A stretch of 64,000 bases of DNA from NCBI GenBank assembly GCA_032027045.1, contig JAVSMU010000001.1, positions 1,387,756 to 1,451,755 of the forward strand. Direction: 5' to 3'. The notes under the pieces are model-generated. The model was given only the letters and a program-made list of their open reading frames with translations, was not told the DNA's origin and ran no database searches. This document shows positions 34,799 to 60,420 of the stretch, piece by piece. The number at the start of each line of letters is the position of its first letter. Position 1 is the stretch's first letter. Both the position numbers and the translations under genes were made by a program. Origin of the DNA: Truepera sp. (GTDB lineage Bacteria; Deinococcota; Deinococci; Deinococcales; Trueperaceae).

Positions 34799-34875
34799 CG
34801 GGGTGTAGCGCAGCCTGGTAGCGCACTTGACTGGGGGTCAAGTGGTCGTCAGTTCAAATCTGGCCACCCCGACCA
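34799..34875 (+). tRNA. tRNA-Pro (anticodon GGG)
   Basis: A full cloverleaf can be drawn. The acceptor stem CGGGGTG pairs with CACCCCG; the D arm is GCGC...GCGC; the anticodon stem CTTGA/TCAAG closes the loop CTGGGGG with anticodon GGG; the T arm GTCAG/CTGGC closes TTCAAAT. CCA is encoded. The 3' part from 34831 is duplicated at 60376-60420, marking this gene as the attachment site of the island. Confidence 0.96.
34831..34875. repeat. Left attachment repeat of the island (attL)
   Basis: This 45-bp direct repeat covers the anticodon loop to CCA of tRNA-Pro. The copy at 60376-60420 differs at only two bases (34851 A versus G, 34861 T versus C), which are paired with each other in the T stem. 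The intact tRNA and the integrase lie on this side. Confidence 0.85.
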
Positions 34876-35259: not shown

Positions 35260-36000
35260 CTAGTCGGCAGCCGTAGCACCTTCCTCGTCGTCCCCACTAT
35301 CGTCCAGGAACGCATCCATCGGGAGGGTGCTGCGACGCAGCGCCTCGTCGTCTGGGTCCTCGTAGACGTTCTGGGAGAAAGCAACGTCCTTGTGGCCCAT
35401 CACGCGGCTCGTCAGCTTCGGTGCCCCCGTGTCGTTGGTGGACAAGGTCATGAACGTGTGCCGGAACGAGTAGAGGGTGACGCTCCCCCGGATGCCAGCC
35501 TTCGCCGCGATCGGCTTGAGATGCCGGTTCAGAATGTTACGGGAGTCGGCCGGCTGACCATCCAGGCCACAGAACACCAGTTCGAGGTTCTCGTCGTAGG
35601 CGCGTAATTCCTCCTGGGGGGACAGGTGCTCCAGGAGGATCTGCTCCAAGCCGGGCGAGATCGGAACCTTGCGCTTGCTGCTCAGGGTCTTCGGCGGGTC
35701 GAACTGGTACAGGCCCCCGGGCAACAGGGTCAGCTTCCGTTCGACGTGGATCCACCCGGCACCGAAGTCAACGTGCTCCCAGGAGAGCGCCAGGGCCTCG
35801 GAGGGACGGAGACCGGTGCTGGCGAGGAGCGCGAAAAACGAGTACCAGTAGTTGCCACGTGCTGCTTCCATTAACGCTGCGAGTTCCGCGGCCGTGAGGG
35901 CGCGCTTCTTGGATTCTGCTACGTCGCTCTGGCGGCGCTTGAGATCGTGCAGGACGTTCGTAGCCACGAACTTGGAGTGACCCCTGCTCCACCCCCTACC
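35260..36000 (-). pseudogene. Tyrosine recombinase (integrase), 5'-truncated
   Basis: This is the island integrase. The catalytic domain is complete: Arg I in TGLRPSEALAL, box II YSFRHTFMT (Tyr in place of the first His of HxxRH), GHKDVAFSQNVYED with the nucleophile Tyr, and an acidic tail. Homology starts only at about 35975 (SKFVATNVLHDLKRRQ), which corresponds to the end of the usual core-binding domain. The open frame continues to 36153, but those residues are a low-complexity Gly/Arg run and not the SAM-like N-terminal domain. It is probably inactive or dependent on another integrase. Orientation towards the tRNA is typical for tRNA-integrated islands. Confidence 0.82.
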
Positions 36001-36018
36001 TCCCCCGCCTGACCGGCC

Positions 36019-36038
36019 GCCGGATAACGTTATCCGGC
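36019..36038. promoter_or_regulatory. 20-bp perfect palindrome upstream of the ParB gene
   Basis: GCCGGATAACGTTATCCGGC is a perfect palindrome 114 nt before the ParB start, between divergent integrase and ParB genes. It is not the canonical chromosomal parS sequence. It could be an autoregulatory operator or an element-specific ParB site. Confidence 0.5.
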
Positions 36039-36151
36039 CCACGACCAACCCCCACGGCCGCCCCCCTCTGACAGAGCGTCGCGAGAAGCGACTAGTAGGA
36101 ATCGCTAGCCTTCCACAGAGGCCACTCCTACGCTGGCCAAGAGGACTGACC

Positions 36152-37225
36152 ATGCAGAAAGAGCAAGAGCAACAAGAGCAGGAGAAACAGGAGAAGCGGC
36201 CGCAGCCGACGCGGTACCGCTCGGAGATGCCGCTTGATCAGCTCATGCCGTCGCCGGAGAACGCCCGCAGGCGCTTCGAGGACGGCCCGCTACGCGACCT
36301 CGCCGACTCGATCCGCTCCCAAGGCGTCACCAACCCGCTCACTGTTGTCCTGCGGGAAAGCGCCTCAGACGAGAAGCCTACCTACACTGTGATCGCCGGC
36401 GAACGGCGTCGCCGCGCCGCCATCCTCGCCGGCCTCACAGAAGTACCCGTCATCTGCCTGTTCGACCCTCACCTTATCGACCAAGCCCCGCAGATCGCCC
36501 TCGCCGAGAACCTCCTCCGCCAGCCGCTCAACCCCTACGAGGAGACGATGGCGATCCTCGACCTCGTCGCCAACCGCCTAGCGCGCCAGTCCAAGTGGCC
36601 CACATACCGTGAGCATTACCCTTCCGACCGGCACGCCGCCGCTGAGGCCCTCCGTCTGCTAGCCCTCGGCGGCAAGAACCATGAAGCGCTCCGCACCTCC
36701 CTGAAGATCGAACCGAGCGAACTCGAGAAACTCCTCACCGGCCTCCTCGGGGAGCGCGACGGGATGAGCTTCACCAGCTTCGTCAAGAACCGCCTGAAAC
36801 TGCTGAAGCTCCCGCCCGACGTCCAACGCGCCTGCGAAACGGGCGCACTCGACTACACCAAGGCGAACCTACTGTCCGAGGTCCAGGACGCGGCCCATCG
36901 CCAGTCTCTCCTCGACCGAACCCTCGAGCAGAACCTCCCCCACGCTCAGCTACGCCGCCTCGTTAACGAGGTGAAAGGTTCGAAGTCGCCCAGGACCGAT
37001 CTCTTCACCCGACTCGATCAGGTGAAGCGCGACCTCAAGACAGCATGGCCAGACCTGGGCTCCAAGGACCGTGCTCGCGCCGAACGCCTGGCCAACGAAC
37101 TCGAACAGCTCGCGGGTCGTGAAACCTCCGAGCGACGTCCTCAGCTCAAGAAAGCCGGAGAGGACCGCAAGCTGTCTACCAACAGCGACGCCACCTACTC
37201 GACGTCGACCGCCTCAGGCACGTAG
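36152..37225 (+). CDS. ParB/Spo0J-family protein, orphan
   Basis: This 357-residue ParB-like DNA-binding protein starts with a Gln/Glu-rich tail of 17 residues. The ParB/Srx CTPase domain then shows DQLMPSPENARRRFED, VIAGERRRRAAILAGL (GxRRxxA box) and IALAENLLRQPLNPYEE. A helix-turn-helix region follows and a basic C-terminal part. No ParA partner is encoded next to it. In mobile elements such ParBs serve partition of an excised form or gene regulation; here it is divergent from the integrase. Its 3' end overlaps the convergent nuclease pseudogene. Confidence 0.87.
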   Translation: MQKEQEQQEQEKQEKRPQPTRYRSEMPLDQLMPSPENARRRFEDGPLRDLADSIRSQGVTNPLTVVLRESASDEKPTYTVIAGERRRRAAILAGLTEVPVICLFDPHLIDQAPQIALAENLLRQPLNPYEETMAILDLVANRLARQSKWPTYREHYPSDRHAAAEALRLLALGGKNHEALRTSLKIEPSELEKLLTGLLGERDGMSFTSFVKNRLKLLKLPPDVQRACETGALDYTKANLLSEVQDAAHRQSLLDRTLEQNLPHAQLRRLVNEVKGSKSPRTDLFTRLDQVKRDLKTAWPDLGSKDRARAERLANELEQLAGRETSERRPQLKKAGEDRKLSTNSDATYSTSTASGT

Positions 37226-38180
37226 ACGCGCCGCAATGGGAGCAACCCCTTGTACTTCGAGTCGAGCTGCTCGTACCGGTCAAGCACCAAGCTCACGAGC
37301 TGCTCGCCGTCGATCAACCGCAGGTTCGCCTTGCTATTGGCGAAGTTGCGCGCCTGCGGCGTGAAGTCACCTAGCGTCACCAGAAGGCCGAACTCCGAGC
37401 TCGCCACGTTGCCGTAGAGCGCCTGCACCGCCGGCGCTCCGACGCTGCCCTCCGTGGACTTCACCTGCACCTTGATGATCGGCGGCTCGAACCCGAGCTC
37501 GTCGCGGTGCGCCAAGATGTCGACACCGCCGTCGGGGCCCGGCGGAGAAACGCGCGTCCGGTAGCCAAGCACCGAGCAGGTCGGCAACGAACGCCGAGTA
37601 CGGATGGCCCTTGAGCTCGCGCCCGATCGTCTTGAGGACGAAGTGACGCGTCGTCGCCTCGATCTCCTCTGCTACCAGCGCCACCGTCTCGTCCTGCTCT
37701 GCCGCAGGTGTCACCACCTGCCCCTGAAGCGCTGCCAAGTGCTCGTCGAGGTAGTTGCGCACCTGGAACAGCGTCAACGCCAATCCCAGCTCGAACAGCG
37801 CCCGTTGCGAGTAGCTGCTGCGCGGCACACGCTTCAGCCACTGGGCCCGCCGTTGGTGGCAGAAGCGGTAAGGCGCCTCAAGTGCGAATCGGTAGTCACT
37901 CTTGACGCGCCCCAGGTGCACTTGCTGATCGAGCTTCGACGGGTACGCCACCAGGTCCCCAACCTGCATCTCGTGCACGAAACGGTCGAGCCAACTCGCG
38001 CCCGTCACGACGCTGCCATCCGAGGGCTCCGGGAAGACCTGGCGGTAGACCTGCTTGAACGCCTCGCGGTCGTTCGGCAGCGCTGCCAGGTCCGGCGTGC
38101 CGGGCCAGGCCAGCGCCACGACGCCGTTCTTGGCAAATACCTAGTAAGCCTCTTCCCCATGGCCTGCGAGAATCTCCAAC
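37195..38180 (-). pseudogene. Mrr-like restriction endonuclease, frameshifted and with an early stop
   Basis: Two overlapping minus-strand frames together encode one protein. The N-terminal part (38119 downward) begins KNGVVALAWPGTPDL and ends at GHPYSAFVADLLGA. The C-terminal part continues in another frame from LGYRTRVSPPGPDGGVDI to QVKSTEG and FGLLVTLGDFTPQA, a PD-(D/E)xK Mrr catalytic core with Asp and Gln-x-Lys. The switch is at about 37563-37575. Upstream, the first frame continues past a TAG (38141-38143) into WLEILAGHGEEAY, which looks like the missing N-terminus. So at least two lesions are present. It lies 32-92 bp downstream of the methyltransferase gene on the same strand. Confidence 0.72.
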
Positions 38181-38211: not shown

Positions 38212-41200
38212 TCAGGCAAACTTCGGCCTAGTACTCGCACAATGGGTGACACTTGCATCAGCAGGGGGCGGATGGAGGACCGAGGTGAACTTAGAAACGT
38301 CAGACCCGCAATCCGATAGTGCGGAGAAAGCCTCCAGTGTCGCTTCTTTAGTACGAAAACGACCGTAGGCTTCCTCGTCAAGCCTTCGAAGTATGGGAAA
38401 CGCGTCGAGCACGTGCTCCACTTCAGTCTTGTTGAGGCCATAACGGAGGAAGAAGTATGCGTCTAGCTCAGCAAGAATAGTCAAGCGGCGCTCTTCATTC
38501 AAAATGAACGGAGGGCCACCGTATCCGTGTGCCTTGGCAAAGCCCTCGAGGTCCCAAGAAGTGAAACTCAACTCCAATACTCGTGGGATTACAAAGTCTA
38601 GGTCATGCGACCCGTACGAACTCGGAGGAAGCGCAGGTAACTGCCTTACTATGAAGTAGGATAAGTGACTCCCGCCCAGCTTTTGCCTGGTAACGTAGTC
38701 GAAGACTAGGCTGTTAAGGTTGGCTAACAATGCGGCTAATGGCACCTGCGTTTCTTCAACAATCAGGAACTGCACTACGTGGTTTGCTGCAGCCCTTGGC
38801 AATGCGGTAAATATCGCCGTGCGTCGATTTGTGTTGACATTGACGATGTCGCGGAAGACTAGTGCCTTCCACCAGTCGTGTCTTACGACACGCTCAACCT
38901 CTTGACGTTCGACCCAGTACCGAGGAAGTGGCGCTAGCGCTGGATCACAGAGAGAGTCCGCGGTAATGCGCTGCGTTTGGGGCTTTACACCGAAGCGCTT
39001 CTCTGGTGGGATTCCCTCGAACGTACCATACCTATGGTTGTATTGATGGAACATCTTTGCCTCGTAAAGGGGTAGCAATTCTTCGTTTCCTTCTCTCGCG
39101 AATCGGTTCCCCTGAAGTGCGTACCCCTCGGCTTCAAGTTCTTCGAGTGTGCGAAAGTATCCTGAGTCGTTCGCCATGTCGAACATACGCATGAACGAGA
39201 CTCCCCACGGATTCTCCCCGCTCAGCTCGTTCACCAGCACCGGCACGCGCCGGTAAATGTCTTTAGTAATATTAGCGTCCCGCCGAGCCCGAAAAACTGG
39301 ACAGGTTCCTGTGTTCGGGTTCAGCAATCTGATCTCCTCGGGGGTAAGCACGAACCGTTTTTCTGAGTCTTGAACCTCTTCTACGCTAAGCATGAAGAAT
39401 GCCAGTTCTGATTCAGTAACCGGATTCCCAGCTCCAGTTAGCGTAATAAGGCAGAATTTCTGGGGTGGCGCCACTGCTGGGAAGATTCGGCGCTTGTTCT
39501 CGAAGTCGAATATTCGAACTAGTGCACGCTCATCGATTAGATTCTGGAAAAAGTACTTTGTCGTGTCATCAGTAGCAATCCCGGTAGGCAACACCATCCC
39601 CAACCGCCCGCGTGTGCTTTGAACGCTCCGACCCAGTTCCGCGAAGAGAGGATAGGTGTTTATGTCGCCACGGCCGGTGAGTGGGTAGCGACCTGAGTTG
39701 CGGGCATAGTGGCTTTCGCCCTCTGCTCTACGTTTGTCCTCGAGGAAGGCTGCGTGCAGGCTCGGGTCGGACTGGGTGAGAGCCCGGATGAGACGGCCGC
39801 GTTCGCTGGCGTTGCGGGCGTTAGCGATGGCCGGGTCGCGGGCGGCGAACCACTCCTTCTCCTGGAGCTTGACGCGCTCCCACGGCGGGTTGCCGAGCAC
39901 GACGTCGAAGCCGCTCCTCTCGCCCCCGAACACCTCTGGGAAGGTCAGCTCCCAGGCGAAGAAGCCGTACAAGGTCGCGAGCCGCTCGACCTCGCGACGC
40001 CGGACCTCATCGAGCCCGCCGGCCTGCAGCACCCGCCGCACCGTGCCGGTCGTGACAGGCAAGGGCGCCCCCTCTACCTTGCGCCACACGAACGCCGCAC
40101 ACCAGGCATCGTGGGCGAGCTGCTCCCGGGACAGGCGCTCGTCCTCCAGCAACCGCTCGTAGGCCGCCTGCTTAGCTTGCACCTGCTCGGGCGTGTCCGT
40201 GGGCATGTTCGACAGTTCCGTGAAGGCCGTGGCGAGGGCCGTTGCTGAAGCGCTGGGCGCGGTGTCGAACAGGGCCCCTTGGCCGCCGCGCTCCTCGCGG
40301 TTGCGCCGCTTCACGCCCGAGGCGTACTTCTTGTCGTCCCCCTCGATTGGGTTGAAGGCGTTGTCTGGAAGACCCTCCGCAACCAGCTTCCTTGTGGTGC
40401 CGAAAAGGCTGTTACCGACCCGGATGTGGTGCTCGAGGAACGTGAGCGGCTTGCCGGGCTCCATCGCCTCCATCCACAGGGCGACCTTGCACAGCTCCGC
40501 GGCCATCTCGTTGACGTCTACGCCGTAGATGCAGTTGCCGATCACGTCGCGCAGCGCGCGCCGCACTTCGTCGGGGGCCGGCTCGTCGTCACCGGTGCGC
40601 ACGGCGGCGAGGCGCTTGGCGATGCGCTGGGCGGCGGCTATCAGGAAGTGGCCGCTCCCAGCGGCCGGGTCAACGACCTTGAGGTCGAGGAGCGCGCGCT
40701 CGGCGTCCTCCCGGTCCTTGCCGCGCACGGCCTCGTCGACGACGGGATCCAGCGCGGAGTCGAGCAGTAGGCTTATGAGGCTCGAGGGCGTGTAGTATGA
40801 GCCGGTTGTCTTGCGCTCGTTGCCCGCCGCCGACTTCAGCTCGAAGTCGCTCGCGGAGGCGTCCACCTCGGGGTGGAGCTCGAGCAGGCTCTCGTAGACG
40901 CTGCCGAGCTCCTCGGAGCCGAGGTTCTTGTAGTCGACCGGCCGCCGCACCCCGTTGGTGTGGGTGTAGGCCAGCGCCCGCACCGCCTGCAGCAGGTAGG
41001 CGTTCGGCAGGTTCGCATCGTTAAGCTCGGGAAGCGCGCGCTCCGCGAACAGGAAGCCGCCGAGCTCGGGCAGGCCGAGGCGCGGCTCGCCGCCGCTGCC
41101 CAGCGCTCGCATCACCACCTTGAGTGCCTCGTACAGGTCGCCGTGTCGGCTGCCGCGCAGCTCCGCCGCCAGTTCCCGCAGGCGCTGGGTGGAGTAGTGC

Positions 41201-42153
41201 CGGTACCTCTCACGCGCCTCCGTCCTAGCGCCGGGGGCGTGGAGCAGGTCCCGGTCTTCCGCGACGAACAGGAACAGCAGGCGGTAGACGAGGCGCAGGA
41301 GCTGCCGATAGTAGTCCTGGGGCGAGAGCTCCCCCTCCTGCAGCTTGCGCTTCAGTTCGCAGTTGGTGCCGCGCAGGAAGCCCTTGCCGAGCGCGGTGAT
41401 GGCGCGCTCCACGCCGTCGCGCAGGCCGTCGAGCGCCCTGGCGCCCGTCTCGGCGGCCTCGCGCGACCACTGCTCGAGCACGCACTCCTCGGGCTTGTTG
41501 CTCTCCAGGCGGCTTTGGTGGAGTAGCAAGTAGAGCAGCACGAAGTCGGAGTACTGCTCGCCCTCCATCATCGCCTCGAGCTCGAACTCGAGGAACGCCT
41601 GCCGGGTGAGGCTCTTGTTGTCGCGCAGCACGCGCAGCCGCAGCCCGTTAGTGACGACACCCCACAGGTGCTCGTCGCTGCGGTTCAGGAGTTCCTGCAC
41701 CAGGGAGTGCGGGCTGGCCGTGGCGGCGCCCGCCACCCCGCGCGTGCGACGGTCCAGGTCGACGTTGCAACCCACCAGGTGAATGGGCGCGTGCCCGTAG
41801 CCGTGCGATACCGCGTAGCTCTTGCCGTCGATCTCGACGGCGGTCCGCGCTTGGAGGCGGCCGTAGTTGAGCTCCTGGAAGAGCGGCAGCAGCCAGCGCT
41901 CGCGCGTGATCGTGGTGCCGAGGTCGCCTTCGGGCAGGCGCTCGCGCGCCTCCTGGAACGTCGTCCAGGCGCCGAGCAGGGCGTTCCAGGCGCGGCTGGC
42001 GGCTTCGTTGAGGCGCATCCCGCCTGGCAGGTGGTAGGCCTCTGGCGTGAGAGCGGGCAGCGTGCGGTCGCCAGCTTGGACGCGGCGTAGCAGGTCGGCG
42101 GGGAGCAGCGCCCCCTCGGTCTTGATAGTGGTGGCGAAAGCGCTGTCCTTCAT
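38212..42153 (-). CDS. Large N6-adenine DNA methyltransferase (DrmMI/PglX/Eco57I-like)
   Basis: This 1313-residue class I SAM-dependent DNA methyltransferase has an N-terminal helical region of about 450 residues, motif I in VVDPAAGSGHFLIAA (about residue 491) and the catalytic NPPW in VVLGNPPWERVKL (about residue 754). A C-terminal specificity-like region follows (TLTEIRLLN-type, ending SSYGSHDLDFVIPRVLEL). The last 500 codons, up to about 39720, are visibly poorer in G+C than the rest, suggesting a replaced recognition domain. It would protect host DNA by methylation. It overlaps the SNF2 helicase gene by 4 nt (ATGA) as third gene of the operon. Whether it is type IIG-like with its own nuclease is not apparent. 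Confidence 0.88.
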   Translation of the reverse strand: MKDSAFATTIKTEGALLPADLLRRVQAGDRTLPALTPEAYHLPGGMRLNEAASRAWNALLGAWTTFQEARERLPEGDLGTTITRERWLLPLFQELNYGRLQARTAVEIDGKSYAVSHGYGHAPIHLVGCNVDLDRRTRGVAGAATASPHSLVQELLNRSDEHLWGVVTNGLRLRVLRDNKSLTRQAFLEFELEAMMEGEQYSDFVLLYLLLHQSRLESNKPEECVLEQWSREAAETGARALDGLRDGVERAITALGKGFLRGTNCELKRKLQEGELSPQDYYRQLLRLVYRLLFLFVAEDRDLLHAPGARTEARERYRHYSTQRLRELAAELRGSRHGDLYEALKVVMRALGSGGEPRLGLPELGGFLFAERALPELNDANLPNAYLLQAVRALAYTHTNGVRRPVDYKNLGSEELGSVYESLLELHPEVDASASDFELKSAAGNERKTTGSYYTPSSLISLLLDSALDPVVDEAVRGKDREDAERALLDLKVVDPAAGSGHFLIAAAQRIAKRLAAVRTGDDEPAPDEVRRALRDVIGNCIYGVDVNEMAAELCKVALWMEAMEPGKPLTFLEHHIRVGNSLFGTTRKLVAEGLPDNAFNPIEGDDKKYASGVKRRNREERGGQGALFDTAPSASATALATAFTELSNMPTDTPEQVQAKQAAYERLLEDERLSREQLAHDAWCAAFVWRKVEGAPLPVTTGTVRRVLQAGGLDEVRRREVERLATLYGFFAWELTFPEVFGGERSGFDVVLGNPPWERVKLQEKEWFAARDPAIANARNASERGRLIRALTQSDPSLHAAFLEDKRRAEGESHYARNSGRYPLTGRGDINTYPLFAELGRSVQSTRGRLGMVLPTGIATDDTTKYFFQNLIDERALVRIFDFENKRRIFPAVAPPQKFCLITLTGAGNPVTESELAFFMLSVEEVQDSEKRFVLTPEEIRLLNPNTGTCPVFRARRDANITKDIYRRVPVLVNELSGENPWGVSFMRMFDMANDSGYFRTLEELEAEGYALQGNRFAREGNEELLPLYEAKMFHQYNHRYGTFEGIPPEKRFGVKPQTQRITADSLCDPALAPLPRYWVERQEVERVVRHDWWKALVFRDIVNVNTNRRTAIFTALPRAAANHVVQFLIVEETQVPLAALLANLNSLVFDYVTRQKLGGSHLSYFIVRQLPALPPSSYGSHDLDFVIPRVLELSFTSWDLEGFAKAHGYGGPPFILNEERRLTILAELDAYFFLRYGLNKTEVEHVLDAFPILRRLDEEAYGRFRTKEATLEAFSALSDCGSDVSKFTSVLHPPPADASVTHCASTRPKFA

Positions 42154-44984
42154 GCGACACCCGGCGCTGGGGGGAGGAAGACGTAGATCCCGAGGACGTC
42201 GACGGGCAGCAGCGGTTCCACCGCGTAGCGCAGGCCCTTGGCGCCCGCCGCGGTGCGCACGCGCCGGTGCGCGTCCAGTAGCCCCTCGGCCCGTTCGTGG
42301 GCGAGGTCCCCCAGGTAACCAGCCAAGTCGTCGAGGTCCGCGATCGCGGCCTCCACGAACTGCTGGGCCTGAACCGGCGCCAGGTTGCCCGCCGGCTCCG
42401 CGTGGAGCAGCGGCTCTGCAGACGCGAACTCCAGCCAGCGGCGGTCGCTGCCGGCGCCAGCGAACGCCAGCGGCAGCGTCTCCTCAGCCAGCGTCTGCCA
42501 CGCCTCGGACCCCTTGGTGGTGGCCACGTGGTAGCGCAGCCGGGCCAGCAGCAGCGTGGTGCGGGTGGCCACAGAGCGGGTACGCATGGCGCCCGCGCGC
42601 TTGGCCTTGCCATCGGCGAGCGGGTCGAGGGCCGTGTCCAGCACGAAGCTGGCCAGGCCCTCGGTGAACGGGTGGGTGCGGCTGAGGTAGGTCTCGCCGT
42701 CGCGAGCCGGAAGCTCGAAGCGCGCCGTCAACCGCTCGGTCTTGACGCTCTCGCGCAGCCCCTCGGGGGCGTACTGCAGGTCGAACCCCAGCGCCCCGAA
42801 GCGGTCTGGGCTGACGGTGCCGCCGTGCGCCCGCACGGCGTCGGTCACGAAGCGCTCAACCACCTCGGCGCCGCCCACGGCCGCCTTGGCTTCTTCGAGT
42901 TCGCGTGCGACCTCGTCGACCTTGATGGTCTCCTGCGCGAACACCGTGCGGGAGCGCCGCTCCCGCTCCGCCACCGCGTCCCACCGGCGGTTGAAGTCGG
43001 CGGTCTTGGGCTTCAGGTACTGCTCCAGGTCGGCGAAGAGCACGCCCTGCTCGGCGCTGCGGTTGGCGAGGCCGCGCAGCAGCAGCCCCTCGAAGATCGC
43101 CTCCACCACCTGGTCGGAGTCGGTCGGCACCGGCACGCTGATGCCCAGGCTGGTTCGGATGGTGCGGTGCTTGCGCAGCAGCACGTCGAGAACGATGCCG
43201 TCGATCTGGTTGTCGGTGCCGTACATGGTGCGCACCAGCACGCGCTCGCGCGGCTGGCCGTAGCGGTCCACGCGCCCCTCGCGCTGCTCGTGCCGGGTGG
43301 GGTTCCAGCTCAGGTCGTAGTGCAGCACGCTGTCGAAGTGAGACTGCAAGTTGATGCCCTCGCTCAGGCAGTCCGTGGCAACCAGCACGCGCTTGTCGTG
43401 CTCGGCCAGCGCCAGCACCCGCGCCTCGCGCTCCTCGGGCGGCAGGTTGCCGGTAATGGCCGCGACCTCGACCCCGCGCGGCAGGCGCGAGCGCAGCTCC
43501 TCCGCCACGTACTCGGCCGTGTCGATGAAGCGGCAGAAGACGATGGGCGCGTGCCCGGCCTCGAGCTGCTCCTTGAGGAGCCCCGCGAGCGTCGTCAGCT
43601 TCTGGTCCTTCGCGCCTTTGAGGCGCTCGGCTTCCTCGGCCAGCTCCAGCAGCCGCCGGCGCGAGGCGTTGGCCGCCTGCTCGCCTTCCACCTGGCTGCC
43701 GGGGGTGACGTCGACGCCCTCGGCGGCATCTTCCTCCATCAGGTCGAGGACGGTGCGCCGCCCGACCTCATCGGCTTCGGCCACCGAGTCGGTGTCGGCC
43801 GGCGCCGCGCGGTTGCGCAGCGTGGCGGCAGCCGCGGCAGGCGAGCTGGCTAGGGCGCGCAGCAGGCCGAGCATGGCCCACCAGCGCACGCGCTGGCGGT
43901 GCGAGCCGTCATCCTGCTTGAGCTCCTCGCGCGCGAAGGCGAGCACTCTATCGAACAGCGCCTTGGCCTCGCGTCCGATCTGGTAGGGCACGTCGGCCTC
44001 GTCACGCTCCGGGAAGAAGGTGGCAGCGCCCAGATACTGCTTGATGTCACCGCGCTTGCGCTGCACGAAGTGCTTCGCGAGCTCGCGCCGCACCGGCTCG
44101 TTCTCCCGGCCCGACAGATCCTCGGGCAGGCGCGCGAACTCCGGCCTGAGCAGCGCCAGCAGCGACCGGAACGCCCCCTCGTTGCCCGAGTGCGGCGTGG
44201 CGGTGACCAGCACCAGGTGCCGCGCCTCGTCCTCCGCCAGGCCCTTCAGCAGGCGGTGGCGCTGGTGCCGGCCGCCTCTCCCTTCGCCCGCGTCGGCGCA
44301 GGTGTGGGCCTCGTCGACGATCACCAGCTCGGGGGCGGAGCGCAGGAACTCGTCGCGGCGCCGGTCGCTCTTTATGAAGTCGGTGGAGACGATGGTGTAG
44401 GGGTAGCGCTCGAAGATCGACTGCGCGAATCCCACGTCGCGCTCCAGACGGGATGCGGTGCTGGGCAGCACCAGTACGGGGTCGATGTGGAACTTCTCGC
44501 TCAGCTCCGTGCGCCACTGGTCGGCCAGGTGCGGCGGGCAGAGCACGCTGAAGCGGCTCACCTCACCCCGGTCCGAGAGCTCGCGCGCGATCAGGAGCGC
44601 CTCGACCGTCTTGCCGATGCCCACGTCGTCGGCGATGAGCAGTCTGACCGGGTCGAGCTTCAGCGCCATGAGCAGCGGCACGAGCTGGTAGGGCCGCGGT
44701 TCGACAGCGATACGCCCGAAGCTCCGGAACGGCCCCGCGCTCGAGCGGAACGACAGCAGGGCGGCGTCGCGCAGCAGCCCGGCCGAGCGCGCGTCCCCAA
44801 CATCGTCAGGGTTTGGGAGCCCGAATGTGGCCTCGCGGACCTCCTCGAGCCCGAGGAGCAAGCCCGTCACCTCGTCGTCGCGGCCGCCCAACGGCTTGAG
44901 CACCAGGAACTCCTCGTCGGAGCCCGGTTGCACCACCCAGTCGCGCCCGCGCGCGTTCACCAGGGATCCTGCTTGGAACGTCAC
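42150..44984 (-). CDS. SNF2-family helicase (DrmD-like)
   Basis: This 944-residue superfamily 2 ATPase has the Walker A segment LLIADDVGIGKTVEALL, the DEAH box in LVIVDEAHTCAD, motif III in VLVTATPHSGNEGAF and motif VI in QREGRVDRYGQPRERV. A C-terminal region of about 300 residues has no recognised fold. This COG0553-type protein resembles DrmD of class 1 DISARM. The frame is open to 45032, but GTG 44984 overlaps the stop of the upstream helicase (GTGA) and begins right before the conserved GSLVNARGRDWVV, so it is chosen. Its own stop overlaps the methyltransferase start. Confidence 0.88.
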   Translation of the reverse strand: MTFQAGSLVNARGRDWVVQPGSDEEFLVLKPLGGRDDEVTGLLLGLEEVREATFGLPNPDDVGDARSAGLLRDAALLSFRSSAGPFRSFGRIAVEPRPYQLVPLLMALKLDPVRLLIADDVGIGKTVEALLIARELSDRGEVSRFSVLCPPHLADQWRTELSEKFHIDPVLVLPSTASRLERDVGFAQSIFERYPYTIVSTDFIKSDRRRDEFLRSAPELVIVDEAHTCADAGEGRGGRHQRHRLLKGLAEDEARHLVLVTATPHSGNEGAFRSLLALLRPEFARLPEDLSGRENEPVRRELAKHFVQRKRGDIKQYLGAATFFPERDEADVPYQIGREAKALFDRVLAFAREELKQDDGSHRQRVRWWAMLGLLRALASSPAAAAATLRNRAAPADTDSVAEADEVGRRTVLDLMEEDAAEGVDVTPGSQVEGEQAANASRRRLLELAEEAERLKGAKDQKLTTLAGLLKEQLEAGHAPIVFCRFIDTAEYVAEELRSRLPRGVEVAAITGNLPPEEREARVLALAEHDKRVLVATDCLSEGINLQSHFDSVLHYDLSWNPTRHEQREGRVDRYGQPRERVLVRTMYGTDNQIDGIVLDVLLRKHRTIRTSLGISVPVPTDSDQVVEAIFEGLLLRGLANRSAEQGVLFADLEQYLKPKTADFNRRWDAVAERERRSRTVFAQETIKVDEVARELEEAKAAVGGAEVVERFVTDAVRAHGGTVSPDRFGALGFDLQYAPEGLRESVKTERLTARFELPARDGETYLSRTHPFTEGLASFVLDTALDPLADGKAKRAGAMRTRSVATRTTLLLARLRYHVATTKGSEAWQTLAEETLPLAFAGAGSDRRWLEFASAEPLLHAEPAGNLAPVQAQQFVEAAIADLDDLAGYLGDLAHERAEGLLDAHRRVRTAAGAKGLRYAVEPLLPVDVLGIYVFLPPAPGVA

Positions 44985-47900
44985 CCTTCGCCTCCGAAAA
45001 GCGCAGCGTGCTCCTGCAGCAGCCGCGCCCAATCATCCTTGTGGTGGAACCGCAGCACGGAGATCCCGACGTCGAGCATCGCCGCCGTCAACGTGCGGTC
45101 CCGTTCCTGCCGGTCGGGGTAGTCGTGCGGCGGGCCATCGATGTAGACCGCCACGCCCTGCTCGGCGTAGTAGAAGTCCGGGACCGTCATCCCGCCAGGG
45201 AGCTCGAGGCAGTGCTGCGCGGCGTCCGGCAGGCGCAGGCCCTGAGCCTCCAGCAGGTCGAGGAACGAGCGCTCCAGCTCGCTGTCGCACGCCTTACGCA
45301 ACCGCGCCAGGTGCGCCGCGCGCGGCTCGGCGGATGGCGAGGCGGCCACCGCCGCGCGCGTGAGGCTGAGCAGCAGGTCACGTACCGCGAAGCGGTCCAC
45401 GTGCTCGTGATCGCGCTGGTTGCCGTAGCTCATCAGGCAGTCGTAGCAGGCGGCCTCGCAGCGCTCGCGCGCCCCCGGGGCCTTACCGAGGTCCGTGCCG
45501 GTGTCGGGGTCGAAGTGGGCGATCTCCAGCGCTCGGCGCGCTACCCGCGCGATGGCGCCGGGGTCCTCGACCAGCGACCGCAGCACGCCCGCGCCGCCCT
45601 CGGCCGCCTCGAAGAACAGGATCGCGCGGCGCTCGTCCCGGCTCGGCAGCGGCTCCGCCGCCAGCTCGTTGTCCTCGAGCTGGTACTCGACCTGGATGGC
45701 CGTCTTCAGGGCCGCCTGCAGCGAGGCCATCACGCCGACCTCGAGATGCTCGGTGGGCCGCCACACCAGCAGGTTCCGGCGGTCCTCGACGTACGGGACC
45801 ACCTTGCGCACGCTCTTGGAGAGCGGGTCGTCGGCCTCCTCGAGGTGCGGTTCTTCCCCGCTAAGCTCGGACTCCTTCGCCCAGAAGCCGCGCTCGACGT
45901 CGAGCGCGAAGCCGATGTCGTTGGGGTTCTGGCGGTGGCGCCAGCCCAGGTTGATGCGCCAGATGGTCGCGGCTTGGCCGAACTCAAGGTTCGCCACTGC
46001 TTGCCCGTCGACCGTCACGCCGGCCGAGCGCGCCTGCAGGACGCCCTGCTCCACCGCGAAGCGGTAGCCGGTCATGACCTCGTAGCCGAGGCGCTGGCGC
46101 TCCTCCTCGTCGCTGGAGATGCGCTCGACGCGCTTGGTGGTCACGTTCTGCATGCGCAGTAGCGAGGTGAGCGCGGTGGGCAGCCGCGCGCCGCAGCGCT
46201 CGCAGTTCTCGTAATCGAGCTTGTCGGTCACCGGGTGGAAGTAGCCGCACGCCTCGCAGCGCTTGGCCGCCTGCTCGGCAACACCGTCCCGTCCCTCGGG
46301 GTCGGGCGGCAGCAGCACCCGGTTCACGCGGTACTTGGCCCCATCGTGGTAGACGATCGCTTGCGGCCCGAACTCGCTGATCGCCAGGAACCGCGGCCGC
46401 GAGACGTACTCGTCGCGGCCGGTGCGGTTCATGCGCCCGGGGATGAACGCCGACAGCGGCAACCTCGGGAACGAGTAACCCGGCAGGAAGCCCTCGCTGG
46501 CGAAGTAGCGGTAGGAGAAGAAGTCCGATGCCATCGCCGACTCAGAGTCGATGAGCAGGTCGCGCTGCATGCGCGCCTCGCGGTAGAGCCGCTCCGCCTG
46601 CCGGCGCTTTTGCACCGGGGCGCTGGCGTCGAGGATCACCGCGTGCTGCCTGGCCATCTGGTCGACCGCCGCGAGGTAGAGGCCGCGCCAGCGGTCGGCC
46701 GTCCGATCGAACCGCGCGCGCACCTGCTTGAGGGTCTCGTCGAGCCAGCCAGCGTGGTACCAGGGCGCCTGCACCAGCTCGCCTTCGATGCTCGCTAGGA
46801 CGCGCTCGGCCCGCTGGCGCGAGCGGATGAGCGCGTTCTGGTGCGAGGTCTCGGTGGCCACCCGGTCGTTGACGGGCAGGTTCGGCGCCTCGAGGTCGAG
46901 CACGTCGGCCAGGCTGCGGCCGAGGTCCGTGCCGGTCTCCGACAGCCAGATGGCGTGAACGTGCGCGCGCACCAGGTCCTCGTTGCTTAGGTCTAACCGG
47001 GGCGGCGCCACGGCGCCCGCCACCATCTGGTCCTGGCGCTTGAAGAAGTACGCGTCGTGCGAGTTCCAGTTCAGGCAGTAGGTGAACACCAGCGCCGGCT
47101 GGCCGCTGCGGCCCGCGCGCCCGCTGCGCTGCGCGTAGTTGGCCGGCGTCGGCGGCACGTTGCGCATGTTCACGACGTTCAGCGACGCGATGTCGACCCC
47201 GAGCTCCATGGTGGGCGAGCAGTACAGCACCGGCAGGTCCCCGGTGCGGAACGCCTGCTCGCGCTCCTCACGCTCGTCGGCCGACACCTGCGCCGTGTGC
47301 TCCGCGGCATGCACGCCACCGAGGTTGCGGGCGACCTCCTGGTAGTAGCGCTCGAAGAACTCGTTGGCCTTCCGCTCGCCCACGGGCGGGTCGACCACCC
47401 GCAGCGGGTCGTGATAGGGGGTGCCGTCACCGGCGTGCCAGCGCAGCGAGGCCGCGTAGACCTGGTAGCCCGGCACTTGGCCCGGCTTGCCTGGCGGCAG
47501 CACCTCCGCCACCAGGCCCGCCCGCTGCAGGATCTTCAAGAGCTCGCAGATGATGACCTCGGTCTGCTCAATGCTCGGCCGCTCGGCGAGGTGCGGCAGG
47601 GTACCGTCTCGCCGGAGGAAGCGGCCAAAGCCGCCGCGGCCGGAGAGGTAGACCCATTCGCGGGTGTCGCCCTTGCTCTGGGCGCGCGGCAGCGCCACGC
47701 TGGCGTACTCCAGGCGCTCGCGCTCGTTGAGCGCCCATTCGCCGGTCAGGCGCTGGCCGCTCCGCGCTTTGAGCTGCTCCAGGAAGTCCTTGTCGAGAGG
47801 ATCGGCCTTGATCGCCAGGCTGCGGCGCATCAGGTCCAGCAGTGCCTTGGCTACACCGTAGCGCGCTTCAGGCGCCGCGCCTGACAACGCCGGGTGCAGG

Positions 47901-50161
47901 CCCTGCCAGTACTCGTCGCTGGCGCACAGTTCCTCAATGTCCTGGTAGCGGATTTCGAGGAGGCCCACCTGCTCCAGGTTGGGGGCGTTCAGGCGCCAGC
48001 CGCGTTTCAGGTCTTGGAAGATGCGGTACGCCAGCACGTCCCGCAAGGTCTCCTCTGTCTGGCGCTTCGCGGCCAGGAACACGGTGGGGTCGGCGGCGTA
48101 CTCCTCGAACTCCAGGTTCATCACTCCGAAGACCTTCTGCGCCACCTCGTGGTGCTGCAGGCCGTTCGCGCCCGCCTCGTACGCCGCCTGGTAGAGCGCG
48201 CCACGCAACAACCCGACCTCGACGAAGTCGTTGAAGTGCCCCGCCTGCAGCGCCGCGTCCTGCCGGTTGTCGGTGAATGAGAGCAGCTTGCGCGCCTCGG
48301 CATCCAGGTCTGACTCCATCAACCGGCGCACCGCCGACAGGCTCAGGATGGTGGTGGAGGTCGCCCGGCCCTCGCTGGAGAAGACGTTCAGCTTCGAGAA
48401 GTCGCCCTGGCGCCCCGGGTAGGTCACCCCGCACGCCAGGCAGAACTTGAACGGCGCGGCGACGAACTGGTAGGTCTTGCCGCCCGCACCCTGACGGCCC
48501 TCGGGCAGCACGGAGACCGTGAGCGGCCGGTCGGTGCGCCGGTGGGAGCGCAGCCTGGTCTGGCCGTCACGCTCCTCGAGCCAGTCGTCAGGAAGCCGGG
48601 CGTAGTAGTCGTCCGAGTCCTCCTCCGGCCACGGCCGGTCCTCGCTGGCGTACAGGAACCCGGCAGTGAGGCCGGCCTGCCCTTTGGAGTCGGCCAGGCG
48701 CCGCGCCGAGAAGCGCTCGGTGGCCGGGTCGCGCCAGACCGTGTAGTACTCGTGGCCGCATTCACGACAGAACGCCAGCGGCAACAGCAGCGCTTCACGA
48801 TCACGCCCGGGCGCGAACTGCTGGGCGGCCATCGTCACGTGCCGCTGCGCCGGGTCCTCGGCGGTGGCGTATATCGCGTCGCCCTTGCTAATGAACTGGT
48901 GCAACCGGAACGCGAACAGCGGGCGGCCGCTCGCCGCGTCACGCGCCTCGCTCCCCGCCAAGAGCGTGCTCCTCAACGCCCGCTCGCACGCTTCGGGCTC
49001 CAGGCCCGTGAGCCTAGCCAGCTCTTCCGCTGCGCCGTTTTCACCACCCAGTCGGCGCGGTAGGGCGCGCACCAACCGGCCGGTGCCGGGCTCCTGGGTC
49101 ACACCGAAGGTCGTCTCGATCCACGACGCGAGCGCCGTCGACTTGAGCTGAGCGTGGCTGAGCTCCTTCAAGCGCGTGTACCCGACGACGTTGCCTCGCA
49201 GCGCTTGGAGCTCGCCAGGCTCTTCGAAGCCCAACTCGGGCGTTTCGCGCTGTAGGGTCTCGCCGATCACGTGGTCGGCGGCGACCGGCACGCCGAAGAT
49301 GCGGCTGGCCACTTCGGCCACCTTGGCCTGCCGGTCGGCCAACGTGCCTTCGCTGGCCATGGTGGCCGATGTGCCGATGCACTGCAGCTCCGGCCCTCCC
49401 GCACGCTCGCGAACGCGCCGTATCAGCATGGCCACGTCGGAGCCCTGCCGGCCACGGTACGTGTGCAGCTCGTCGAACACCAAGAAACGCAGGCCCTCGG
49501 CCGCCTCGACCAGGCGCCGCTCCTGCGGGCGCGTGAGGATCAGCTCCAGCATCACGTAGTTCGTCAGCAGCACATCCGGCGGGTTCTGGATGATCTCCTG
49601 CTTCTCCTCGTGCGACTCCTGTCCCGTGTAGCGCCTGAACGTCACCGGCGGCTTGTCGAAGCCCTTCACGAGGAACTTCTCTAGCTCCCCCTCTTGGCTG
49701 TTGGCTAAGGCGTTCATCGGGTAGACCACGATCGCCTTCAGGCCCTTGCCGCTCCCAGCCCGCAGGACGTGATCGACGATTGGGATGATGTACGTCAGGC
49801 TCTTACCCGAGCCCGTGCCGGTCGTGACTACGTAGTCATGGCCACCGCGGGCCACGTCGATCGCCTCGACCTGGTGGCGGTGCAGGCGCATGGGGCTGCC
49901 GATGGGATCTTCGTCGGTCTTGCCCGCACGGAAGACTCGGCCGCACTGCTCGTGCAGCGCGCCGGACGCCACCAGGTCGTCCAGCACGGCGCCCGGGGCG
50001 AAGGACGGGTTCAGTTGGAGCAGCGGCTCGGGCCACAGGCTCCCGCGACGCAGGCTCTCCTCCACCCCGCTCCGGATGCGCTCGTCGCGGATGCGGATGA
50101 AGCTCTTTACATAGTCTGCGTAGTCCGCGACCAACCCGTCGCGAAACTCGAAAACGTCCAT
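44981..50161 (-). CDS. DEAD/DEAH helicase with DUF1998 and C-terminal Vsr/DUF559-like domain
   Basis: This 1726-residue protein has helicase motifs TTGTGSGKS (residues 113-121), LVFDELHTYRG (DELH at 230-233), GTSATM, then the helicase C half with SPTMELGVDIASLNVVN and YAQRSGRAGRSG. Zinc-ribbon-like Cys pairs occur at about 467, 577 and 1304. The DUF1998 (MZB) region has FFEAAEGGAGVLRSLVED and the Cys cluster CEAACYDCLMSYGN near 1577. The last 100 residues (SELERSFLDLLEAQG, TVPDFYY, VAVYIDGPPHDYPDR) look like a Vsr/DUF559 endonuclease fold. It combines roles split between DrmA and DrmB in DISARM and resembles DruE of Druantia. First gene of the operon; AGAGGGG precedes the ATG. Confidence 0.88.
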   Translation of the reverse strand: MDVFEFRDGLVADYADYVKSFIRIRDERIRSGVEESLRRGSLWPEPLLQLNPSFAPGAVLDDLVASGALHEQCGRVFRAGKTDEDPIGSPMRLHRHQVEAIDVARGGHDYVVTTGTGSGKSLTYIIPIVDHVLRAGSGKGLKAIVVYPMNALANSQEGELEKFLVKGFDKPPVTFRRYTGQESHEEKQEIIQNPPDVLLTNYVMLELILTRPQERRLVEAAEGLRFLVFDELHTYRGRQGSDVAMLIRRVRERAGGPELQCIGTSATMASEGTLADRQAKVAEVASRIFGVPVAADHVIGETLQRETPELGFEEPGELQALRGNVVGYTRLKELSHAQLKSTALASWIETTFGVTQEPGTGRLVRALPRRLGGENGAAEELARLTGLEPEACERALRSTLLAGSEARDAASGRPLFAFRLHQFISKGDAIYATAEDPAQRHVTMAAQQFAPGRDREALLLPLAFCRECGHEYYTVWRDPATERFSARRLADSKGQAGLTAGFLYASEDRPWPEEDSDDYYARLPDDWLEERDGQTRLRSHRRTDRPLTVSVLPEGRQGAGGKTYQFVAAPFKFCLACGVTYPGRQGDFSKLNVFSSEGRATSTTILSLSAVRRLMESDLDAEARKLLSFTDNRQDAALQAGHFNDFVEVGLLRGALYQAAYEAGANGLQHHEVAQKVFGVMNLEFEEYAADPTVFLAAKRQTEETLRDVLAYRIFQDLKRGWRLNAPNLEQVGLLEIRYQDIEELCASDEYWQGLHPALSGAAPEARYGVAKALLDLMRRSLAIKADPLDKDFLEQLKARSGQRLTGEWALNERERLEYASVALPRAQSKGDTREWVYLSGRGGFGRFLRRDGTLPHLAERPSIEQTEVIICELLKILQRAGLVAEVLPPGKPGQVPGYQVYAASLRWHAGDGTPYHDPLRVVDPPVGERKANEFFERYYQEVARNLGGVHAAEHTAQVSADEREEREQAFRTGDLPVLYCSPTMELGVDIASLNVVNMRNVPPTPANYAQRSGRAGRSGQPALVFTYCLNWNSHDAYFFKRQDQMVAGAVAPPRLDLSNEDLVRAHVHAIWLSETGTDLGRSLADVLDLEAPNLPVNDRVATETSHQNALIRSRQRAERVLASIEGELVQAPWYHAGWLDETLKQVRARFDRTADRWRGLYLAAVDQMARQHAVILDASAPVQKRRQAERLYREARMQRDLLIDSESAMASDFFSYRYFASEGFLPGYSFPRLPLSAFIPGRMNRTGRDEYVSRPRFLAISEFGPQAIVYHDGAKYRVNRVLLPPDPEGRDGVAEQAAKRCEACGYFHPVTDKLDYENCERCGARLPTALTSLLRMQNVTTKRVERISSDEEERQRLGYEVMTGYRFAVEQGVLQARSAGVTVDGQAVANLEFGQAATIWRINLGWRHRQNPNDIGFALDVERGFWAKESELSGEEPHLEEADDPLSKSVRKVVPYVEDRRNLLVWRPTEHLEVGVMASLQAALKTAIQVEYQLEDNELAAEPLPSRDERRAILFFEAAEGGAGVLRSLVEDPGAIARVARRALEIAHFDPDTGTDLGKAPGARERCEAACYDCLMSYGNQRDHEHVDRFAVRDLLLSLTRAAVAASPSAEPRAAHLARLRKACDSELERSFLDLLEAQGLRLPDAAQHCLELPGGMTVPDFYYAEQGVAVYIDGPPHDYPDRQERDRTLTAAMLDVGISVLRFHHKDDWARLLQEHAALFGGEG

Positions 50162-60375: not shown

Positions 60376-60420
60376 CTGGGGGTCAAGTGGTCGTCGGTTC
60401 AAATCCGGCCACCCCGACCA
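60376..60420. repeat. Right attachment repeat of the island (attR)
   Basis: This partial copy of tRNA-Pro (anticodon loop to CCA) matches 34831-34875 at 43 of 45 bases. The two differences make a G-C pair in the T stem in place of A-T, so both versions can fold. Upstream of it no tRNA 5' half exists. It is probably the host gene's original 3' end, displaced by integration. Confidence 0.85.

Follow-up and report, generated by a model that had tools for sequence, protein, structure and literature searches.

Results and Discussion

Genes of the operon

We analysed a 64,000-nucleotide stretch of the Truepera sp. contig JAVSMU010000001.1 (positions 1,387,756 to 1,451,755), here called the window, which carries a three-gene operon on a tRNA-Pro island. 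The minus-strand open reading frames (ORFs) encode a helicase with a DUF1998 domain (1726 aa), an SNF2 protein (960 aa as listed) and an adenine methyltransferase (1313 aa), whose start and the SNF2 stop share 4 nt (Table 1). As judged from the sequence, the GTG at 44984, which gives an SNF2 protein of 944 aa, is more likely to be the start of that gene than the listed TTG, because the SNF2 protein of a second such locus in the same genome begins at the matching residue (MTFETGSL); with this GTG as start, the SNF2 gene shares 4 nt with the end of the helicase gene as well. These three overlapping genes had been recognised in a preliminary description made from the letters alone, and the ORF list, the Pfam matches and the GTG start agree with it; the coordinates it gave, 44981-50161, hold for the helicase but cover that gene alone and not the operon. 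As set out below, the operon is very probably an ARMADA Type I anti-phage system.

Table 1. Features of the operon and its island (positions in the window).
Feature	Position	Strand	Evidence
YprA/DruE-like superfamily 2 helicase with DUF1998/MZB and C-terminal Vsr-type nuclease, 1726 aa	44981..50161	-	Pfam, PADLOC DruE3, tree, motifs
DEAD (RecA1) domain, aa 95-270	49352..49879	-	Pfam DEAD 4.1e-27
MZB/DUF1998 zinc-binding domain, aa 1481-1576	45434..45721	-	Pfam 38.3 bits, cut-off 24.2
Predicted Vsr/DUF559-type PD-(D/E)xK nuclease domain, aa 1627-1726 (SELE, PDF, DGPPH)	44984..45283	-	Motifs, DUF559, predicted structure
SNF2/RapA/BrxHII-like translocase, likely GTG start 44984 (944 aa); listed from TTG 45032 (960 aa)	42150..44984	-	PADLOC, Pfam, NCBIfam, PDB, motifs
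PglX/DrmMI-like N6-adenine methyltransferase, 1313 aa, DPAAGSG and NPPW	38212..42153	-	PADLOC, Pfam, NCBIfam, motifs
C-terminal (presumed target-recognition) part of the methyltransferase; GC content at third codon positions (GC3) 0.57 vs 0.91	38212..39735	-	GC3 profile, per-bin identity
tRNA-Pro(GGG), island integration site	34799..34875	+	tRNA call
Attachment repeat inside tRNA-Pro	34831..34875	+	43/45 identical to 60376-60420
Other copy of this repeat, at the far boundary of the ~25.6-kb island	60376..60420	+	Repeat comparison
Tyrosine integrase catalytic domain; N-terminal domain unrecognised, looks truncated	35260..36153	-	Pfam
ParB-like gene	36152..37225	+	Pfam
N-terminal part of Mrr-type restriction gene, frame-interrupted	37367..38119	-	PADLOC PDC-S02, profile 27-211
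C-terminal Mrr_cat part of the same Mrr-type gene, other frame	37195..37587	-	PDC-S02, profile 211-331

The helicase scores above the Pfam gathering thresholds for DEAD, Helicase_C, ResIII and MZB (= DUF1998), and carries the motifs GTGSGKS, DELH and QRSGRAGR. Its best PADLOC model is DruE3 (2.6e-107), DrmA reaching just 6e-15, and against the NCBIfam DrmA model it scores 14.6 bits (cut-off 950). By sequence its closest solved chains are 9tu7_Y ('DEAD/DEAH box helicase') and 9wae_A ('Helicase'), followed by YprA (6znp). At the level of motifs, CREC 465 and CLAC 574 form the pairs of the RecA2 insertion, CEAC 1302 and CERC 1320 make up one inserted zinc module ahead of DUF1998, and CYDC 1572 lies inside DUF1998 itself.

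The last ~100 residues of the helicase hold a glutamate (in SELE), PDF and DGPPH, which is the pattern of Vsr/DUF559 nucleases. The DUF559 model scores 19.8 bits here, slightly below its cut-off of 20.6, which the homologue from Binatota (L034) passes, and of the 33 helicases aligned, 28 retain the DGxxH motif, that of the window being one of them. On the predicted structure of the domain, Foldseek gave I-Bth0305I as top match (prob 0.92), and VIA matched I-Bth0305I at Z 8.0 and E. coli Vsr (1cw0) at Z 7.3, with a root-mean-square deviation of 2.8 over 91 residues at 23% identity. The attached domain is real and, from motifs and model, looks like a nuclease of the Vsr/DUF559 type with a predicted cutting activity, in line with the earlier proposal that a nuclease-like domain other than phospholipase D (PLD) is attached to the helicase.

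The SNF2 protein passes the Pfam gathering thresholds for SNF2-rel_dom, ResIII, DEAD and Helicase_C, carries DVGIGKT and DEAH, and matches RapA chains in the PDB at 8.7e-19. In PADLOC its first model is DpdE PDLC02853 (1.7e-248, 825 bits, residues 17-956), followed by DrmD (3.4e-88) and BrxHII (2.0e-53), with BrxHI also matched; the NCBIfam models for DrmD and DpdE give 318.9 bits (cut-off 610) and 182.6 bits (cut-off 500), respectively. The methyltransferase passes the thresholds for Eco57I and N6_Mtase, and carries DPAAGSG and, at residue 755, NPPW. PADLOC matches it to DrmMI (7.3e-68) and also to type IIG enzymes; BREX PglX models match weakly, with 43.9 bits against NCBIfam BREX-2 (cut-off 400), and a sequence search of the PDB returned no match at E 1e-5. 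Catalytic motifs are thus present in all three core genes, which are full length.

Probable assignment to ARMADA Type I

In ARMADA Type I, as described by Bell et al. 2025 (bioRxiv 2025.09.15.676423, PMC12458937), a YprA homologue is followed by a BrxHII-like helicase and a PglX-like methylase, and a Vsr nuclease is fused to the YprA C-terminus. The operon in the window matches this description in its domains and its gene order; the type is therefore already described. It also shares with Type I the absence of a visible ArmD and the placing of the CxxC pairs, which sit where Type I predicts them. Two features of the window differ, namely a broken Mrr-type nuclease as fourth gene (Mrr does not appear in the main text of PMC12458937) and a methylase recognition half of foreign-looking base composition. 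We conclude that the three-gene defence operon is real and well conserved, and is a new example, with small new features, of a known type. ARMADA Type II, represented by E. coli ATCC 8739 (L067), shares the three homologous proteins and a tRNA-associated island, but differs in its order, which we read from ATCC 8739 as ArmA(SNF2)-ArmB(methyltransferase)-ArmC(YprA)-ArmD. Type II is reported to keep strictly to its own order and to be followed almost always by ArmD, a GajB/RelE-like protein (Bell et al. 2025). PADLOC, run on 7 ORFs of the window near the operon, gave no GajB match, whereas the reference ArmD does match in that search.

Annotation libraries do not name the operon as one system. 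None of the three proteins reaches its NCBIfam cut-off, and the best models of the three in PADLOC-DB 2.0.0 come from different systems. The mixed DruE, DpdE and DrmMI labels arise because this library (2023) is older than the description of ARMADA, and the spreading of ARMADA-I over them should serve as a warning in annotation. We noticed in particular that the DpdE label, which covers the whole SNF2 protein, is a trap, no Dpd gene being present among the scanned neighbours; the DpdE model was more likely than not built from relatives of ARMADA-I.

The assignment leaves four other readings to be considered. The first is that the locus is an ARMADA-I operon which no longer works or has been repurposed. 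The integrase looks truncated, the Mrr gene is split between frames and the island looks immobilised, but with three core genes at full length, each with its catalytic motifs, we regard this as unlikely.

The second reading, that of the preliminary description, is a DISARM-like system of a type not described before. The DISARM-related but non-canonical character holds good: the SNF2 protein resembles DrmD and the methylase DrmMI, as in DISARM class 1, but the window has helicase and DUF1998 in one chain and a Vsr nuclease instead of separate drmA/drmB with DrmC, and its proteins miss the NCBIfam cut-offs for DISARM equivalogs. A drmC gene was said to be missing, and scans of neighbouring ORFs (10 with Pfam, 7 with PADLOC) show no DrmC/PLD gene. 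The suggested fusion of drmA- and drmB-like parts is probably the wrong way round, since YprA-family proteins are reported to carry helicase and OB-CON-DUF1998 in one chain as a rule, DISARM being the branch that is consistently split (Bell et al. 2025). As to novelty, the models drawn from different systems and the NCBIfam scores below cut-off (DrmD at 318.9 against 610, for example) would favour an undescribed type, but both architecture and order have already been published under the name ARMADA Type I, and the order occurs widely. A distinct type, as the preliminary description had it, is therefore right in so far as the operon is neither DISARM nor Druantia, but that type already has a name. 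One named system with this exact architecture exists in the literature but not in PADLOC-DB of 2023. An undescribed type is thus refuted on that point and has very little probability left.

Third, and equally improbable, the operon could be a diverged Druantia system. DruE3 is indeed the helicase's best PADLOC model, and a DruE-like helicase-nuclease is shared with Druantia III. Against this, neither DruH nor any other Druantia partner is found in the 7 ORFs scanned around the operon, the nuclease is of Vsr type and not PLD as in DruE of Druantia III (Bell et al. 2025), and the SNF2 and methyltransferase partners, which Druantia III lacks, recur in this helicase family. The preliminary description had set Druantia aside on similar grounds, correctly as it appears. 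BREX shares with the window the adenine methylase architecture of PglX with its NPPW, but no other BREX gene was recognised among the window neighbours scanned. The fourth reading, a Dpd/BRIGADE-like modification system, draws on the 825-bit DpdE match and is scarcely credible, since the NCBIfam DpdE score lies below cut-off, no 7-deazaguanine genes occur among the same 10 (Pfam) and 7 (PADLOC) neighbouring ORFs, to which this search was limited, and the window helicase has its DUF1998, where canonical Dpd is reported to have lost the zinc cluster (Bell et al. 2025).

Several points weigh against the assignment to ARMADA Type I, and are taken together here. It was made from the published description, and our tree was built without a named Type I reference (WP_108720193.1). 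Phage protection has been shown for Type II, and PMC12458937, as far as its main text goes, reports none for Type I. No clear partner is seen within the stretch examined in 6 of the 35 related loci surveyed below (L035, L036, L043, L052, L054, L055), a methylase match lying just beyond that stretch in L052 and L055. In the tree the branches of DrmA, the YprA-only proteins, ArmC and DruE are long and their placement is unsure. The nuclease model is of moderate quality (mean predicted local distance difference test, pLDDT, 72.5), its best Foldseek match has E = 0.13, and VIA Z values of 7-8 are within reach of unrelated models. Finally, the model of the window helicase did not yield the BrxA-like insertion that lies after RecA1 and characterises the lineage as a synapomorphy: the helical region there was folded at a mean pLDDT of 62.5, Foldseek gave it no match at E<=0.001, and its best VIA Z is 3.5.

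Relatives and gene order

We chose 35 loci with a related helicase, namely the window, the second locus of its own genome, 3 from a scan of named-genome contigs with the single helicase (which gave 3 loci), 18 of the listed matches and 12 of 71 plasmid records, with the E. coli reference excluded. Those 71 records, out of 72,556 in the plasmid collection, match the helicase at E<=1e-40, and in 68 of them at least 80% of the query is matched at a single place. In the phage collection there was 1 match, weak and partial. YprA, SNF2 and methyltransferase genes follow each other on one strand in 18 of the 35 loci, among them loci of Deinococcus, Nocardioides, Rhodococcus, Roseomonas, Sphingomonas, Acidithiobacillus, Hydrogenimonas, Chlorohelix and Binatota. 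The profile and gene-order searches proposed in the preliminary description gave mixed labels and a recurrent order. A methylase or a fragment of one lies upstream of YprA in 9/35 (L047-L051, L053, L056, L063, L072), with SNF2 also present in L049, L051 and L072, and in 2/35 (L039, L045) YprA and SNF2 are followed by the contig end.

The helicase tree holds 37 sequences and was computed by a quick method with support from the Shimodaira-Hasegawa-like approximate likelihood ratio test (SH-aLRT) only. L043 and L046 were left out of it, and L043 also out of part of the order survey. The window helicase and the one from the genome's second locus form a pair (99% SH-aLRT), lying within a 13-row clade (98%) which holds Deinococcus, Nocardioides, Rhodococcus, Binatota and genomes of the same taxonomic order as the window. 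An 18-row clade (99%) adds Roseomonas, Hydrogenimonas, Acidithiobacillus and Sphingomonas, and stands apart from E. coli ArmC (Type II), Druantia III DruE and DrmA. Most of the loci with the YprA-SNF2-methyltransferase order have their helicases in these clades. The window helicase is also set apart from the YprA-only proteins, as from DrmA, with long branches at both.

Further genes adjoin the ARMADA-I core and are documented here for several loci: McrBC in D. radiodurans MP1 and Nocardioides, HNH genes in Acidithiobacillus and Sphingomonas, EVE and DUF2357 genes in Chlorohelix, and Mrr in the window and the second locus. Several loci, such as D. radiophilus and both Rhodococcus, have none of these beside the core. 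In an earlier paper a DISARM-like system was reported to lie frequently beside McrBC, and a legend there names YprA, DUF1998, SWI2/SNF2 and PglX. Among the five helicases that have lost DGxxH (L042, L071, L073, L074, L075), a small number, an HNH gene lies downstream in L073 and L074 and EVE/DUF2357 genes in L071; in L042 and L075 the downstream region is unannotated or ends at the record start. McrBC also adjoins helicases that retain DGxxH.

We also observed a number of peculiarities in individual loci. In D. radiodurans MP1 (L061, 22946-27975) ARMADA-I is followed by McrBC and the methylase is annotated as two pieces; a further piece resembling the methylase end lies past an IS630 element. 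The Nocardioides plasmid pNOCA01 (L062, 3685-30000) carries DISARM drmA/drmB beside ARMADA-I and McrBC. The Binatota helicase has an in-frame stop (L034, 2369-2371), the helicase in L046 (3266-8483) is split in two overlapping frames, and L043, from the genus of the window, has a truncated helicase. The helicases of L051-L056, from genomes of the same taxonomic order, are related to that of the window and form a separate, well supported clade, in which L051 has the order SNF2-methyltransferase-YprA. One genome of this taxonomic order has a helicase almost the same as a T. thermophilus helicase (L049, L063), which would point to Deinococcota as the phylum of the host.

Presumed recognition half of the methyltransferase

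The C-terminal half of the methyltransferase, which by analogy with the methylase family is presumed to recognise the target, differs from the rest of the operon in base composition. GC3 is 0.92 in YprA and SNF2 and 0.93 and 0.90 in the first two parts of the methyltransferase, but 0.57 and 0.55 in its last two, the best change point being codon 807 (0.91 -> 0.57). We compared this with 24 related methylases (28 rows less 4 under 900 aa); 20 of the 24 show a lower GC3 in the same part with a median drop of 0.10, while the drop of 0.33 in the window is tied second largest. Since most methylases show such a drop it is partly a trend of the family, and alone is no proof of import. Compared bin by bin over residues 831-1180, the other rows are 27-57% identical to the window (14-30% for L042, L070 and E. 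coli ArmB), so in most rows this is a homologous recognition half of another composition and not an unrelated insert. Import of the low-GC3 half is likely but not proven. No close donor was found in the plasmid collection (best match 48% over 93%) or in 111 genomes of the phylum, its own included (best ~53% over 364 of 483 residues, 63% over the first 190). These data indicate the recognition half as the fast-changing part of the system.

The second ARMADA-I locus of the genome lies at L038 13261-13800 (+) and L037 1-3359 (-), where contig ends overlap by exactly 100 nt inside its methylase; counting the overlap once, the methylase ORF is intact, with 1285 codons from stop to stop. Behind it lie an unbroken Mrr-type ORF and, in inverted orientation and free of stops, an alternative C-terminal segment that over 158 residues is 43% identical to the end of the methylase itself, together with an inverted repeat of 39 nt at 90% (20 nt exact). 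With an intact inverted segment and a repeat, one recombination could replace the methylase end. The layout resembles that described for specificity switching in type I restriction-modification systems. Specificity switching is also known for BREX pglX, with a similar layout. We looked for an opposite-strand copy of the recognition segment beside 28 methylase rows, using the last 550 residues of each, and found it in 1 of 28, the second locus only; L044 has a 36-residue fragment of the methylase end on the same strand. From these sequences it is conceivable, although rather doubtful, that in ARMADA Type I the DNA specificity shifts when the methyltransferase exchanges its recognition half, in some loci through inversion of that half. 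The main text of PMC12458937 makes no mention of inversion in ARMADA. If the idea is true, the self mark and the target of a defence system would switch together by inversion, and if the inverted segment is active, the switching would be directly testable by long-read sequencing.

Proposed mode of action

In E. coli, ARMADA Type II is reported to need all four of its genes and to protect without abortive infection; protection is lost when the Walker motif of ArmA, ArmC or ArmD (Walker A) or the NPPW of ArmB is mutated, and only partly lost in two other mutants (Bell et al. 2025). It is mainly from this tested system that we infer the target site, self/non-self rule, marking, loading, helicase direction and cutting for Type I. 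The PglX-like enzyme may use its C-terminal half to recognise a short site in DNA, and may mark host DNA as self by methylating adenine in it. Where phage DNA lacks this mark, both motors, the SNF2/RapA-like translocase and YprA-like helicase, would assemble on it, move along it and open it, the helicase possibly running 3'-to-5' by analogy with MrfA, SftH and DruE; its relative DruE, described as a helicase-nuclease, is reported to load on 3' single-stranded DNA. The Vsr-type nuclease at the helicase end would then cut the phage DNA, so that replication stops and the cell is not killed. The tests reported by Bell et al. 2025 concern Type II; the present genome supplies an ARMADA Type I operon that is complete and has its motifs in place, and a second such locus.

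Island and neighbouring genes

The last 45 nt of tRNA-Pro recur at the far end of the island, the next best place in the window matching 25 of 45. With the truncated look of its integrase, the island is probably immobilised; ARMADA II islands are likewise reported to sit in tRNA genes and to be often immobilised (Bell et al. 2025). The Mrr-type gene following the operon (37195-38119, minus strand) consists of two frames which match adjoining stretches of one PADLOC candidate family. A kinase gene flanking the island has matches of only 28-30% identity in 5 other genomes of the genus. The island (34831-60420) also holds an SBF-family transporter and AbiEi/AbiEii, recognised by Pfam or PADLOC; on reading the translations, putative ArsR- and ArsC-like ORFs stand beside the transporter, and a metal P-type ATPase-like ORF is present in the island as well.

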